The notes beneath the pieces were generated by a model, which worked only from the letters and a program-made list of their open reading frames with translations, made no database searches and had not been told where the DNA came from. Of a DNA stretch of 7,047 nucleotides, positions 847 to 6,905 are shown piece after piece. The stretch covers positions 1 to 7,047 of the forward strand of contig JAUYMQ010000479.1 in the NCBI GenBank assembly GCA_030698575.1, given 5' to 3'. This DNA is from Deltaproteobacteria bacterium (GTDB taxonomy: Bacteria; JAUYMQ01). The number at the start of each line of letters is the position of its first letter. Position 1 is the first letter of the stretch. A program made the translations under genes and the position numbers.

Positions 847-1531
847 TTGGGCTTGGAGCTCCTGCCGCCGGGGAAACCCGGCATGACTCGCGCGAACCTC
901 GCGCGGCTGGCAGGGGCGGTGCTCCTGGGGGGCATCGCCGGCCCGGTCCTCCTTCTCTTTGGGCTCAGCCTGACGCTGGCCGGGTCTGATGGCGGCCCTG
1001 CTCGTGACGGGCGCGTGTATCTGCTGGGGTCTGGACAATCACCTGACGGCGATGATCGATAGAATTACGCCTGTTCGAAGCACTTTCTGGAAGGGTATGG
1101 TCGCGGGAGCCGTGAATCTCATGATCGGCACAGCCGTCGGCCCTCTCGACGCGTCGCCGCCGACGCTGGCCGCAGCCGTGGCGGTCGGTGCGCTCTCCTA
1201 ATGGTGCAAGCATCGCGCTTTACATAACATCGGCGCAGCGCTTTCCTTCACCCTGCTCGGCGAGCCCCTGAGCGATTATCATTTAGCCGCGGGTGCGATG
1301 CTCGCGATCTCTACGAGCCTGATATTTCTCAGCAAGCACGAGCACCATCATGTGCACGAGGCGACGGAACATATCCATGCTCACCGCCAGGACGACGGCC
1401 ATCATTTCCACGAGCATCGCGGGCTGCCCGCCCAGACGCAACGCACGCATTGGCATCGCCACGAAAGCCTCTCACACGCCCATCCACACTGGTCCGATCT
1501 ACATCACCGCCACGATTATTCTGACATTTGA
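847..1531 (+). pseudogene. Decayed DMT/EamA-family permease with His-rich tail
   Basis: Three pieces of one membrane permease can be joined. Piece one (about 847-984, frame 1) contains LARLAGAVLLGGIAGPVLLL, an early transmembrane helix of the DMT fold; the N-terminal 50-60 residues usual in the family are absent. Piece two (from about 985, frame 2) contains LLVTGACICWGLDNHLT and GMVAGAVNLMIG, the start of the second EamA repeat; roughly 50 residues between the pieces are missing and the frame shifts. A TAA at 1199-1201 then stops the frame. The same frame continues beyond it with IGAALSFTLLGEPLS, having lost about 25 residues. The tail from Lys-His-Glu-His (about 1334) to the TGA at 1529-1531 has 21 His in 65 residues. 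His-tailed DMT permeases are a known family and are presumably linked to divalent metals, although transport was not shown here. It cannot be functional as read, barring sequencing error, and three separate lesions make error unlikely. Confidence 0.85.
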
Positions 1532-1565
1532 GAGTTCTGCGGCCATCAAGTGCATCCTGCTTCAT

Positions 1566-1868
1566 GCAAACCGCTGCAGCGCCGAGGAGATTCGCCGCTA
1601 CCGCGGGCGGATCAGCGGGCCTCTGCTGGATCGAATCGACCTCCACGTGGAGATGAGCGCGGTGCCCTGGAAGGAGCTGACGGCCGATCGCGCGGGAGAG
1701 CTCTCAGAGGTTGTTCAAGTTCGCATCGAGGCGGCGCGCGAAACGCAGCGCGCGCGCTTCGCGGGGCGGGCGTTCGCGTTCAACGCGGCGATGACGACGC
1801 GCGAGGTGAAGCGCCACTGCCATCCGCAGCCCGACGCCATGGTGCTGCTGGAGCGGGCGGTGGCCTAG
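1566..1868 (+). pseudogene. comM: Internal fragment of ComM/YifB Mg-chelatase-like AAA+ ATPase
   Basis: About 100 residues match the part of ComM/YifB that follows the ATPase core. CSAEEIRRYRGRISGPLLD then RIDLHVEM is the hallmark of the family, followed by a helical segment (RIEAARETQRARF) and the start of the C-terminal domain (FNAAMTTREVKRHC). It stops at TAG 1866-1868, right after LLERAVA. Intact family members continue for about 50 more residues (the LSARAY...RVARTIADL region) and are about 500 residues long, so both ends are lost: the N-terminal Walker motifs are absent upstream. No start codon or ribosome site fits. Homology begins about 35 bp after the stop of the permease remnant, so the two dead genes are fused by rearrangement. 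ComM is a helicase that aids branch migration during natural transformation; this fragment cannot do that. Confidence 0.85.
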
Positions 1869-2057: not shown

Positions 2058-3308
2058 ATGCCGCCCCGCCCTTCCAGAGTGAAGAAAGGCAAGCCCGCTC
2101 ACCCGGCGCTGCACCGGCTCATCCGGCGGATGAGCCCGACCCGGAGCAAGCTGGCGCGGCGCATCCTCGAGCAGTCCCTCGAAGTGCTTCCACACTACCG
2201 GAGCCTCCCCGCCGCGGCCCGCAAGACGGTCTACGACAACGTCCTGCACCACGTCTCGCTCTTCTACCGCGTGACCCTCGAGGAAGGCCGTCCCCTCACC
2301 GCCGCGGAGCTGAAGGCCTCGCAGCGGAACGCACGGGTGCGGGCCTCCCAGGGCGTTCCCCTCGGCGAGCTGCTCGCCGCCTACCAGATAGGCAACAGCC
2401 TCGTCTGGCAGAACCTCGTCGCCTGCGCGGGGTCGAATCCGGCCGAGAGATCGGAGCTCCTCGAAAGGGTCGGGACGATCTTCTTCAACCAGACGCAGAT
2501 CATGACAGCGGTCACGGAAGCCTATGTGGAGGAGCGGGAGAGCCTCTCGCACTTCCGCGAGCAGGATGTCGACGATTTCTTCCGGCTGCTGCTCTCGGAG
2601 GAAAAGCGCGAGGGTCTCCTCGAGATCCGGGCCAAGTCGCTCGGGATCCGGCTGGATGAACCGCACTTCGTCGCTTTCTTCCGGCCCGCGACTGCGACCG
2701 TCGCCGAGCGATCACCGGTGACGCAGGAAAACGTCCGGCGCCTGCTGACCGGCAGGACGAAAGCGATCGGGGGGCTGGTCGCGCGCTTGCCGGAGGGCTT
2801 TGCCGTCCTCCTGCCGGACAAGCCGGATACCGTCGAGCTTGCGGACATCGCCCGGAGCCTCCTCGGCGAGAAGGCGCGGCTCGGGATCGGCGGAACGGGA
2901 ACCGACATCGCGGGGCTGAGGCGCTCGGCGCGCGAGGCCCTGCGGGCGATTCACATCGGATCCCTCGTGCACCAGGATGCCCCCTTCCATCGCTACGCGG
3001 ATCTCGCGGTCCTGGATCTCGTGGGAATCGGCTCGGCCGACGCCGAGGCCTTCGTCGATGGCGTGCTCGGTCCTCTCGTCCGGTCGAAATCGAACAGCAT
3101 CCACCTGAACACGCTGCGCGAGCTCTCACGGAACGGCTTTCGGGCCAAGCTCGCGGCGGCGGCCCTCTCCATCCATCCCCACACGCTGTCCTACCGCCTG
3201 AAGCAGATCCACGGCCGTTTCGGAATCGATATCGACGATGCCGAGACGCGCCTGCGCTTGTACCTGGCGCTGCTCATCCTCGATGCCATGGCGCCTTCCG
3301 CCCCCTAG
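2058..3308 (+). CDS. PucR/CdaR-family transcriptional regulator with RsbRD-like N-terminus
   Basis: A 416-residue cytoplasmic regulator. Residues about 30-170 are helical (LARRILEQSLEVLPHYRSL, then FYRVTLEEGRP, GVPLGELLAAYQIG and a segment ending near SHFREQD) and resemble the RsbRD/RsbT-co-antagonist N-terminal sensor domain. Residues about 185-300 (SLGIRLDEPHFVAFFRP, GFAVLLPD, LGIGGTGTDIAGLRRSAREA) look like the GGDEF-like central domain of this family. Residues about 350-405 (NTLRELSRNG, SIHPHTLSYRLKQI, GRFGIDIDDAETRLRLYLAL) are the PucR C-terminal helix-turn-helix, the strongest match. Length is normal and the frame is intact. The start at ATG 2058 is chosen because a weak AGG-type ribosome site lies about 8 nt before it and the N-terminus is basic. 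The ligand and targets are unknown. It lies 260 bp upstream of the lipase on the same strand, so it may regulate that gene; this is inference. Confidence 0.88.
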   Translation: MPPRPSRVKKGKPAHPALHRLIRRMSPTRSKLARRILEQSLEVLPHYRSLPAAARKTVYDNVLHHVSLFYRVTLEEGRPLTAAELKASQRNARVRASQGVPLGELLAAYQIGNSLVWQNLVACAGSNPAERSELLERVGTIFFNQTQIMTAVTEAYVEERESLSHFREQDVDDFFRLLLSEEKREGLLEIRAKSLGIRLDEPHFVAFFRPATATVAERSPVTQENVRRLLTGRTKAIGGLVARLPEGFAVLLPDKPDTVELADIARSLLGEKARLGIGGTGTDIAGLRRSAREALRAIHIGSLVHQDAPFHRYADLAVLDLVGIGSADAEAFVDGVLGPLVRSKSNSIHLNTLRELSRNGFRAKLAAAALSIHPHTLSYRLKQIHGRFGIDIDDAETRLRLYLALLILDAMAPSAP

Positions 3309-3568
3309 CGCCTCGTCCGCCCCGGAAACCGCCTGCCTCCCGGGCCACCCCATGCTTCCCATGGACCCCGGCGGCGATCAGGGCCGGGCGCGGGCCGCGC
3401 GCCGGACTCTCCCGGACCGCCGGCGGGCGAGCCTCTGCGCTCGAGGCACAAGCCGGGCGCTCGAATCTTGGGTGAGAAGCGCAATGACAGGCTCCGTTCG
3501 CGCCCCTAGGGTGGGCCTTTCCACGCATAGACAGCGTGCCGCGCATAACCATAACAAGGAGCAGGAAC
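3309..3568 (+). other. 260-bp regulator-lipase gap, possible control region
   Basis: No gene here. It holds a direct repeat GCGCTCGA at 3437-3444 and 3457-3464, start-to-start 20 bp (two helical turns), about 105-130 bp before the lipase start. It also has a short inverted repeat CCATG-N5-CATGG (3350-3364) and a weak 5-bp hairpin GCCTC/GAGGC (3431-3447). No good sigma-70 promoter and no T-tailed terminator after the regulator gene can be seen, so read-through from the regulator into the lipase is possible. Confidence 0.3.
3556..3561 (+). promoter_or_regulatory. Shine-Dalgarno site of the lipase gene
   Basis: AAGGAG followed by a 7-nt spacer and ATG at 3569. It rules out the longer in-frame GTG start at 3536 and places the start exactly at the signal peptide. 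Confidence 0.8.
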
Positions 3569-4975
3569 ATGAACCTTCGACCATCCCCCACTCTTGCCGC
3601 ATTCGTGCTTGCGATGATCGGCATTCTCGCCGCCGGAACCTTCGCACCAACAACGGCCCGCGCCGAAGAGCCCCTCCCGATCGTCTACGTGCACGGCGGA
3701 GCGGGTTCGGGTGCGCAGTACGAAACGCAGGCCATGCGTTTCGCGAGCAACGGCTATCCGAACGTGGTGCGGGCCATCGACCGCACCTCGTCCAGCTCGG
3801 CGACCCTCAATCCCATGCTGGACGCCTTCTTCGATGCGGTCATGGCCGAGACCGGCGACACCCAGATCTACGTCGTGGCCCATTCGCTCGGCACGAGCCT
3901 CATGATCAACTACCTGAACAGCTCGGCCGCGCGCAGCGCCAGGGTCGCCAAGTACATCAACATCGACGGCGCCACGGGCGCCAACTGCCCCGGGAACCCG
4001 GCGCCGGTGAACTGCATAGGTGTTTGGGGACAGGGGAATCCGGCCCGCATCATGGGGGCGAACAACGTTTACTTCCCCGACTTCGGTCACACCCAGACCG
4101 TGACGGCTCCCGAGTCCTTCGCCGCGCAGTACAAGTACCTCACGGGGGAAGACCCCGCGACGACGCTCGTCCTGCCCGTGCCGGCGGGCGAGGTCCAGAT
4201 CGCCGGCAAGCTGATCAACTTCCCGGCGAACACGGGCCTCGATGGTGCCACCGTGCATCTCTATGAGGTCCATGACGCGACGGGCGTGAGAAAGGACGTC
4301 CTGCCGGTAGCGATGTTCGACATCGGGCCGACCGGCGAGTGGGGTCCCGTCGCGGTCAACGGAAAGAAGTACTACGAGTTCCACTTGATGCGAAGCGACG
4401 TCGACTACGAGGGCCACTACTACTTCCAGCCCTTCCTTCGGAGCAACTACCTGGTCCGACTGCTCGCGTCCCCGGTTGGGTCGGCCATCGTCGCTAACAC
4501 GGCCAGCGGTCCGGACCAGAGCGCTGCGGTCCTGATCCGGTACAAGGAGTGGTGGGCCGATCAGGGCGCCGGAAGCGACATCATGAACGTCTCCATCACG
4601 AGCCCTACCTGGGGGAACCAGGGACCGCTCAACATCCTGAGCAATCCGGCGGTCGGTGTCAGAGCCGCCAGCAAGATCGGGTTGCACGTGATGGACAACG
4701 GCAGCGACAAGGTCTCGACGCTCGCGCCCGTCCCGTACTTCGTCGGGCAGATCTTCCAGACCGGCGTCGACATCTGGATGCCGGCGACCACGCCGCCGGA
4801 TGGATCCATCCGGTGGGCGAACGCGCCGCGAGGGGACACCAGCAGGGTGCAGACGGTGAACACCCCGAACTGGGCGTCCGACTACCACAGGCTCTCGATC
4901 CAGTTCAACGACTACGTTCAGGACGTGAACAGCTGGGTCCAGTGCAAGCAGACCAAGCCGAGCCCCTGCAAATAG
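3569..4975 (+). CDS. Secreted alpha/beta-hydrolase lipase, AFL (AF1763)-type with C-terminal lipid-binding domain
   Basis: A 468-residue secreted hydrolase. Residues 1-32 are a signal peptide (Leu/Ala/Ile core, cleavage after Ala-Arg-Ala 32). The mature part opens with the strand PIVYVHGGAGSGAQYE, whose HGG supplies the oxyanion region, and continues MRFASNGYPNVVRAID. The nucleophile elbow is AHSLG (Ser106). Asp133 (NIDGATG) and His174 (DFGHTQ) are the likely remaining triad members, in the right order and near-family spacing. Residues about 205-468 form a beta-rich domain (GKLINFPANTGLDGATVHLY, YYEFHL, HYYFQPF) like the C-terminal domain of the Archaeoglobus fulgidus lipase, which binds long-chain lipid. 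Cys140/149 and Cys459/467 could form two disulfides in the periplasm or outside. It should hydrolyse acyl esters; the exact substrate is unknown. The gene ends at a strong terminator, so it is the last of its transcript. Confidence 0.88.
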   Translation: MNLRPSPTLAAFVLAMIGILAAGTFAPTTARAEEPLPIVYVHGGAGSGAQYETQAMRFASNGYPNVVRAIDRTSSSSATLNPMLDAFFDAVMAETGDTQIYVVAHSLGTSLMINYLNSSAARSARVAKYINIDGATGANCPGNPAPVNCIGVWGQGNPARIMGANNVYFPDFGHTQTVTAPESFAAQYKYLTGEDPATTLVLPVPAGEVQIAGKLINFPANTGLDGATVHLYEVHDATGVRKDVLPVAMFDIGPTGEWGPVAVNGKKYYEFHLMRSDVDYEGHYYFQPFLRSNYLVRLLASPVGSAIVANTASGPDQSAAVLIRYKEWWADQGAGSDIMNVSITSPTWGNQGPLNILSNPAVGVRAASKIGLHVMDNGSDKVSTLAPVPYFVGQIFQTGVDIWMPATTPPDGSIRWANAPRGDTSRVQTVNTPNWASDYHRLSIQFNDYVQDVNSWVQCKQTKPSPCK

Positions 4976-5036
4976 CAGGGTTTCCGGCGGCCATGATTGC
5001 GTGACGGCAGCGCCGCCACGCAGCGGGTGAACGCGG

Positions 5037-5065
5037 AGAGGCCACCCCAAAGGGGTGGCCTCTTT
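5037..5065 (+). terminator. Rho-independent terminator after the lipase gene
   Basis: A perfect 12-bp stem AGAGGCCACCCC (5037-5048), loop AAA, GGGGTGGCCTCT (5052-5063), then TT. It starts 62 bp after the lipase stop. The T-tail is short, but the stem is very stable. On the opposite strand the stem is followed by CCGCG, so it works mainly for the plus strand, separating the lipase gene from the convergent DUF5666 gene. Confidence 0.85.
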
Positions 5066-5109
5066 GCGCGGATGGGCCGCTAGTGAGGTTGGCCCGAGCG
5101 GCGGCTGGA

Positions 5110-5126
5110 GGAGAGGTGCCCTCTCC
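5110..5126 (-). terminator. Possible weak terminator of the DUF5666 gene
   Basis: GGAGAGG-TGC-CCTCTCC, a perfect 7-bp stem with a 3-nt loop, lies 26 bp past the stop of the minus-strand gene. No T-run follows on the minus strand, so it may be only a 3'-end stabilising hairpin. Confidence 0.35.
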
Positions 5127-5151
5127 GCTCTCTCCCCGCCCCTGGCCCCGG

Positions 5152-6180
5152 CTATCGCTTGGACTTCGAACCCTTGAGCCGGATCACCGTGCTCGTCGTG
5201 CTGTTCGGCGCGACGGCAATCGAGGCGCGGCCTTTCGAGGTCGAATCTCCGACCTGGCGCGTGGCACTCAACCGCGCCTTTCCCGTGGGAAGACCGTGCA
5301 GCACCACGCGGCCGTTGCTCTGCGCCTGGAAGCGAAGGGTCCGCTTCGTCTTCTTCATCTTCACGGTTCCCTTGCTGGTCGGGACGGCGGTTGTCGTCCG
5401 GACCGACTGCGAGACGTCGACCGTCACGCTGGGGATCGGCTGTCCGTCCTCATCGAGATCATCCACCTCGTTGCCCAGCGTGTCCTCGATCTCGACTTCA
5501 ACCATGTTGCCGTAGTTCTTCACTTCGACCTGCGCCGCCACGAGATCGGGAAGCGCGTTTGGATCCAGTTCCACCTCGACGAACTGGCCGACCATGAGCG
5601 TGTTCGGGTCGATCCCCTGGTTGCTCGAATCGTCGTCCTCGTCGTCACAGCCTTCGACATCTGCCGTGGAGATGTCGATCGGCAGCCCGAGGAGGGTGAT
5701 CGTCCCGAGCATCGGGGCGACGGCCTGGATAGGCGCCTGGATCTCGATCTCGCTGCTATCGTCCTCCTGCTCGACCTCGGTGGCCATGAGAGGGGTCAGG
5801 TCGCCGGCAAGCTTCACCTCGACGGTCTGCCCCACCACGAGATCCGCGCACGTCGCGGGGACGTCGTCATCTTCGACGTCGCCTTCATCCTCCCCCTCGT
5901 TCTCCTCTTCCTGCTCGCTGGAAGCGCTCAAGTGGCCCTCCGACTCGTCGTTCGAATCGCCATCGTCTCCGCTCTCGAAATGGGCGCCGGTCACGTCGAT
6001 CGTGAGCCCGAGCACGGTGATCGTCTGGGGCGTCACGTCGCAGTCGGCCGCCTCGAGCGGCGCCTTGATCTCGATCTGCAACTCGTCGGACTCGTCATCC
6101 GCCAGGGCGCTTTGCACGGGGGCAAGGAGCGCTCCAGCGGCCAGCAGAAAAAGCAGCCACATGAAAGTCTTGCGTTTCAT
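5152..6180 (-). CDS. Exported protein with two DUF5666-like repeats and a basic C-terminal domain
   Basis: A 342-residue protein. Residues 1-27 are a Sec signal peptide (MKRKTF, Leu/Ala core, cleavage after Ala-Leu-Ala). Two repeats follow: A (about 33-137) and B (about 143-221). Each has the pattern EIEI.AP, then ITVLGLTID or ITLLGLPID, then VGQ.VEV, ending in a short strand, which is the DUF5666 small-barrel pattern. Each repeat carries an acidic loop at the same place: residues 70-107 in A, with a dense Glu/Asp stretch, and 178-188 in B (CDDEDDDSSNQ). Residues about 225-342 are a Thr/Ser-rich beta domain, perhaps carboxypeptidase-regulatory-like, ending in KGSKSKR, so the charge switches from strongly acidic to basic. 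Cys are at 47, 111 and 178. GGAG lies 7 nt before ATG 6180; an in-frame ATG at 6204 would add MSNRWRWI but has no ribosome site. The function of DUF5666 is unknown; binding of cations by the loops is my inference. Expression is probably sigma-54-dependent (6240-6255). Confidence 0.87.
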   Translation of the reverse strand: MKRKTFMWLLFLLAAGALLAPVQSALADDESDELQIEIKAPLEAADCDVTPQTITVLGLTIDVTGAHFESGDDGDSNDESEGHLSASSEQEEENEGEDEGDVEDDDVPATCADLVVGQTVEVKLAGDLTPLMATEVEQEDDSSEIEIQAPIQAVAPMLGTITLLGLPIDISTADVEGCDDEDDDSSNQGIDPNTLMVGQFVEVELDPNALPDLVAAQVEVKNYGNMVEVEIEDTLGNEVDDLDEDGQPIPSVTVDVSQSVRTTTAVPTSKGTVKMKKTKRTLRFQAQSNGRVVLHGLPTGKARLSATRQVGDSTSKGRASIAVAPNSTTSTVIRLKGSKSKR

Positions 6181-6239
6181 GATCCATCTCCAACGGTTAG
6201 ACATCTGCGCACCGGGCAGCCCTACTCCTCCTTCTCGGG

Positions 6240-6255
6240 AGCAAGATCCGTGCCA
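6240..6255 (-). promoter_or_regulatory. Sigma-54 (-24/-12) promoter of the DUF5666 gene
   Basis: The minus strand reads TGGCACGGATCTTGCT, which matches every fixed base of the sigma-54 consensus TGGCACG-N4-TTGCW, with GG (6254-6253) and GC (6242-6241) 10 bp apart. Transcription would begin near 6229, giving a leader of about 49 nt with GGAG before ATG 6180. Sigma-54 promoters need an ATP-driven activator bound upstream; the palindrome at 6339-6354 is a candidate site. The activator is not encoded in this window. Confidence 0.85.
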
Positions 6256-6338
6256 CGGGCGGGGAACACGAATTGCCCCCAACAACCGGCCGACCGTGGG
6301 GCGGAAGCGGGGTGCGGGGACAGGGGCGTTACGCGGCG

Positions 6339-6354
6339 AGCACGGATCCGTGCT
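6339..6354. promoter_or_regulatory. Perfect 16-bp palindrome, candidate activator site (UAS)
   Basis: AGCACGGATCCGTGCT is exactly self-complementary. Its centre is about 92 bp upstream of the -24 element and about 117 bp upstream of the predicted transcription start, a typical place for a sigma-54 activator site. It shares the 9-mer GCACGGATC with the promoter itself, which might be coincidence or a second half-site. It also lies 66 bp past the VOC gene's stop, but it has no loop and no T-run, so a terminator is less likely. Confidence 0.55.
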
Positions 6355-6419
6355 TACCCGTACCCGGCGGGCGGGTCCCCTCTTCGAATTGACGGCTGGC
6401 AATCCGGGATCTGGCGTGG

Positions 6420-6905
6420 TCAACGGGCCAGGCCGGGACGGCCTGACCAGAGCCAGGCCACGTTGGTGCGGGACACGCCCATGAGGACGCCGTGGAGTGA
6501 TGCGGGATGGATGAAGAAGTGTTCGTGGCCGTGATCGCCAGGGGCGTCGGCCCAGCGGGCGCCGGCCTTCTCGAGGCGCGAGACGATGGCCTTCGGATCG
6601 TCCGTCTCGGCGAAGCACATGTAGAGCGTCTCGCCGCGCTTCGCGACGAAGCGCCCCATGGCCGAGGCCGGGTCGATGACCTGCGACAGCTCGATGCGGT
6701 CAAGGCGCGCGGGAGGATCGAAGAGAAGAAGCGAGCCGGTGTAACCGAAGGCCTCGCTCTCGATGGGGCAGAACCGGTCGGGCTTCAGATCGAAGACGTT
6801 CGCCAGGTGAGCGGCTTCGGCGCGCCAGTCACCGGTCATCTTCGTGACTTCGTAGATATGTGAAAGAGGCCCCGGCCCGGAGCGTTCAGCCAGGGGTGAG
6901 ATCAC
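6420..6905 (-). CDS. VOC-family (glyoxalase/bleomycin-resistance fold) protein
   Basis: 161 residues from GTG 6905. The pattern is that of a vicinal-oxygen-chelate domain: first strand with helix (HIYEVTKMTGDWRAEAAHLANVF), strands ending in LLLFDPPARLDRIELSQV, second-module strand and helix (ETLYMCFAETDDPKAIVSRLEKAGAR), and a last strand after FFIHPASLHGVLMGVSR. His16 and Glu72 sit where metal ligands can lie in the first module. The second module lacks an obvious Glu ligand (VLMGV), so metal-dependent activity is doubtful. The substrate is unknown. The start is uncertain: GTG 6905 has only a weak GGCGGA upstream, and ATG 6839 would remove the first strand. The frame is open to a TAG at 6956-6954, and the 16 codons between (GGRLHLDPSATGGTRA) look like the end strand of another VOC domain, so this may be half of a larger protein. 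The gene is followed by a 239-bp control region. Confidence 0.8.
   Translation of the reverse strand: MISPLAERSGPGPLSHIYEVTKMTGDWRAEAAHLANVFDLKPDRFCPIESEAFGYTGSLLLFDPPARLDRIELSQVIDPASAMGRFVAKRGETLYMCFAETDDPKAIVSRLEKAGARWADAPGDHGHEHFFIHPASLHGVLMGVSRTNVAWLWSGRPGLAR

Follow-up and report, generated by a model that had tools for sequence, protein, structure and literature searches.

A predicted sigma-54-dependent promoter upstream of an exported DUF5666 protein gene in a lineage near the former Deltaproteobacteria

Results and Discussion

The analysed window, a stretch of 7,047 nucleotides, carries on its minus strand a 16-mer (6255 to 6240) which is very probably, as judged from sequence and setting, an RpoN- and activator-dependent promoter of a monocistronic gene encoding an exported DUF5666 protein. 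Because a perfect core lies 59 nt upstream of this gene, in a genome that clearly uses sigma-54 promoters, the gene is probably signal-activated. The proposal of the initial annotation that such a promoter drives the gene is well supported as a prediction: exact sites are enriched genome-wide, other such sites precede classic targets, rpoN is intact and activators are numerous. The features on which the analysis rests are the following:

6240–6255, minus strand: sigma-54 promoter core TGGCACG-GATC-TTGCT, without mismatches (15 exact sites genome-wide)
6181–6229, minus strand: predicted 5' leader of 49 nt with a GGAG ribosome-binding site ahead of the ATG (position arithmetic and direct reading)
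5152–6180, minus strand: exported acidic protein of 342 residues with DUF5666 (open reading frame, signal peptide, Pfam)
6339–6354, no strand assigned: perfect 16-bp palindrome AGCACGGATCCGTGCT, candidate activator (enhancer) site by inferred role
5038–5063, no strand assigned: GC-rich hairpin, possible terminator, in the interval where the DUF5666 and lipase genes converge (direct reading)

Promoter core and transcription unit

Read directly on the minus strand, the site TGGCACGGATCTTGCT shows no mismatch to the pattern TGGCACGNNNNTTGCW and agrees with the sigma-54 consensus TGGCACG-N4-TTGCW at all 12 fixed positions. The GG of the −24 element is found at 6254/6253 and the GC of the −12 element at 6242/6241, with the C being position −12, so that the fixed bases and exact GG-N10-GC spacing originally described are present. 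Position arithmetic from the −12 element places the predicted transcription start at 6229 and the leader at 6229–6181, in agreement with the strand and the 49-nt leader claimed earlier. The core is intergenic and correctly oriented, at 59 nt from the ATG (6180) of the DUF5666 gene, a start position indicated by the upstream GGAG, the signal peptide MKRKTFMWLLFLLAAGALLAPVQSALA and the codon-position GC bias, which begins there. Upstream of the ATG the frame stays open past the promoter as far as 6618; this extension was not accepted as coding sequence, as it is devoid of coding bias and the signal peptide begins at 6180. A promoter scan of positions 4950–6500 detected no sigma-70-like promoter.

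Regarding the limits of the transcription unit, 164 nt lie between the promoter core and the end of the glyoxalase-like gene upstream, which is on the same strand as the DUF5666 gene, and the lipase-like gene downstream is convergent. The hairpin at 5038–5063 does not satisfy the T-run rule of the terminator scan and is absent from its output.

From these elements we infer transcription from the 6240–6255 site, its start and an activator acting from upstream, which would proceed as follows. RNA polymerase carrying RpoN would bind the −24/−12 element in a closed complex, over which an AAA+ enhancer-binding protein, bound upstream and possibly at the 6339–6354 palindrome, would loop; upon a signal, ATP hydrolysis by this activator would open the promoter, and transcription would start near 6229 to yield a monocistronic mRNA for the exported acidic protein.

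Sigma-54 sites, RpoN and activators in the host genome

The 4.13-Mb host genome (assembly G000) has 15 exact matches to the core, when 0.47–0.72 would be expected by chance from Markov models of order 1 to 4 trained on 204 kb of this genome; allowing up to one mismatch, 69 sites are counted genome-wide, whereas the reversed pattern yields 26. With 15 exact sites versus 0.5–0.7 expected, a chance match at 6240–6255 is therefore unlikely. From enrichment alone, an exact site has odds of about 24 to 1 of being real, and the intergenic place, right strand and nearby start codon raise these odds further, roughly tenfold by our estimate. Contamination by a foreign contig is not indicated, since the base composition and tetranucleotide profile of the window (contig C627) fall within the range of similar-sized contigs.

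In this genome RpoN is encoded with an intact RpoN box (ARRTVTKYRE), and the Sigma54_activat profile matches 24 places, around 20 of them strongly. The matching sites form a regulon-like set, many of whose members precede classic sigma-54 targets. Exact sites are found upstream of the ammonium transporter gene amtB (PF00909, 1.6e-130), of a type IV pilin gene (pilA), on whose contig an NtrC-family activator gene lies upstream, of pilM, of a CBS-domain protein gene and of two NtrC-family response-regulator genes. The window site shares with the −24/−12 promoters of amtB/glnK and pilA the core, spacing and distance to the gene, the presence of rpoN and activators and, possibly, an upstream activator palindrome; in contrast, it has no pyrimidine before TGG, is GC-rich after the −12 element and precedes the gene of an uncharacterized exported protein.

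Three related SpvB-N/FG-GAP protein genes are also preceded by sigma-54 sites, exact at L007 and L012 and with one mismatch at L017. The exact sites L009 (G000:C449:666-681), L014 (G000:C584:2993-3008), L011, L002, L006 and L008 comprise those of a double-zinc-ribbon protein and of a small exported protein without a Pfam match, as well as places without a clear gene, and are further putative members of the regulon.

The RpoN sequence is nearest to those of Desulfuromonadales, other former Deltaproteobacteria and Myxococcota, the best identity being 59%. No close relative was found, and no genome compared shares more than the domain with the host. The assembly represents an isolated lineage close to the former Deltaproteobacteria (L001, G000:C238), its RpoN being at most 59% identical to those of named genomes.

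Flanking bases and alternative explanations

The earlier description of the site as a full-consensus promoter stands for the core and fails for its flanks, which read G before TGG and CCC after TTGCT. The base before TGG is C or T in all 14 other exact genome sites, and the second base after TTGCW is A or T in 12 of these 14, being C at the DUF5666 promoter; a pyrimidine before TGG and A/T after TTGCW, as in an extended-flank definition, are thus both lacking at 6240–6255. In a score built from the other exact sites, the flanks of this promoter obtain −5.7, to be compared with a leave-one-out mean of −0.1 (sd 5.2) for those sites and a mean of −6.8 for the background. The extended flanks of sigma-54 promoters represent a weak preference, and no strict requirement. 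We estimate that the atypical flanks roughly halve the odds of a real site, with a larger drop if the base before TGG is used alone, and do not overturn them; they could also make for a weaker promoter.

These flanks bear on two other readings of the site. The 16-mer might have arisen by chance, with a housekeeping or ECF promoter that escaped detection driving the DUF5666 gene: around 0.6 of the 15 exact sites is expected to be fortuitous, the flanks resemble background, and sigma-70 consensus scans are insensitive in such GC-rich genomes. However, the enrichment sets prior odds of around 24 to 1 against this explanation, and the position of the site, on the right strand with a start codon 59 nt downstream, further favours a real promoter, so that we regard a chance origin as improbable. 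Alternatively, sigma-54 could bind at 6240–6255 as a roadblock or at a silent site, or drive a short RNA, without activating the DUF5666 gene. Binding studies have revealed sigma-54 sites that show no activation, and the atypical flanks could give a weak promoter; yet the site has the position and strand of an ordinary promoter, followed by a short leader and a ribosome-binding site, which makes such binding without activation of the gene highly improbable.

Upstream palindrome

The perfect palindrome at 6339–6354 lies 110–125 nt upstream of the predicted start, with its centre at around 117 nt, where activator sites usually lie. With the promoter core it has GCACGGATC in common, at a spacing of 100 nt. 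At this base composition, by our calculation, about 0.01 perfect palindromes with 8-bp arms and no loop are expected per 240 bp; if loops are allowed, such a palindrome is less unusual. The host genome has a single exact copy, that of the window. A role as regulon-wide activator site was rejected, as allowing up to three mismatches gives 42 matches versus 30 in the control, and among ten near-copy places retrieved, a sigma-54-like site with at least 10 of 12 bases is nearby at the window's own palindrome only. The palindrome may be an activator site dedicated to the DUF5666 promoter.

The DUF5666 protein and its regulation

The initial annotation of an exported DUF5666 protein agrees with the signal peptide and with a match to PF18914 above its cut-off (residues 150–219, E 3.7e-11, 43.6 bits versus 27). 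A weak first DUF5666-like repeat is encoded at 5770–5874, and the C-terminus has a carboxypeptidase-regulatory-like stretch (PF13620, 20.1 bits, below the cut-off of 32.3). This is the sole DUF5666 gene above the Pfam cut-off in the host genome. No PDB relative was found by sequence, and an AlphaFold2 model from the single sequence, with a mean pLDDT of 36.5, was set aside. Like other PF18914 proteins it is exported, with a domain above the cut-off and a second, weak repeat; many of the others examined, however, are longer and lipoprotein-like, carry several strong repeats and lack a sigma-54 site, whereas this protein has a signal peptide without a lipobox, long acidic stretches and the C-terminal stretch mentioned above.

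Searches of genome contigs, viral contigs and plasmids returned no homologue of the protein, and in about 760 whole genomes no orthologue was found, the matches being partial and low-scoring (25–36% identity). We have scored the upstream regions of 67 DUF5666 loci including the window's own (L015), having left out five whose start falls outside the locus; L015 was scored there from a wrong upstream start, so that its 7 of 12 carries no meaning. The −24/−12 element, whose conservation upstream of other DUF5666 genes had been put forward as a check, is absent there: none of the 66 others, which are from distant bacteria and in some cases have doubtful starts or frames, reaches 11 of 12 bases within 350 nt. 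The best score is 10 of 12, at a locus (L216) whose frame is doubtful, and forward- and reverse-strand scores are similar. By this rough test of distant loci, sigma-54 control is apparently not a trait of the DUF5666 family. Since the element is absent upstream of these loci, the promoter gives no role for the family, and the lead to function that had been suggested is more weakly supported than the promoter itself.

For this protein, the likeliest use, which we hold loosely, would be at the cell envelope or surface: other sites in the genome precede pilus, ammonium-transport and exported-protein genes, and sigma-54 regulons tend toward functions of the bacterial exterior (PMC3162934). More tentatively, and in our view somewhat doubtfully, the lineage, which is isolated and deltaproteobacteria-like, may have recruited an exported DUF5666 protein into a surface or nitrogen regulon that responds to a signal through an activator, the unique palindrome being its dedicated enhancer. 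If so, we know of no earlier regulatory lead on a DUF5666 protein. DUF5666 is nearly absent from the open literature, being named in four papers, of which two (PMC10714799, PMC13255231) have it just in lists. With RpoN plus an activator, the prediction names a testable condition for the expression of an exported protein that otherwise lacks annotation; in the regulon list of a poorly sampled lineage, it also puts a domain of unknown function next to genes for pili and nitrogen. It leaves sigma-54 control as already understood unchanged, being a fairly ordinary regulatory lead, in one lineage so far.

Other genes in the window

The lipase-like protein (3536–4975, plus strand) has Lipase_C and AF_1763-like domains at its C-terminus and weakly matches the extracellular PHA depolymerase PhaZ7, and its gene is preceded by that of a PucR/CdaR-type regulator (2058–3308). 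At 1350–1868 (plus strand), part of a ChlI-like (ComM-type) magnesium chelatase protein runs into unrelated sequence, which looks like either a broken gene or a join made in assembly.
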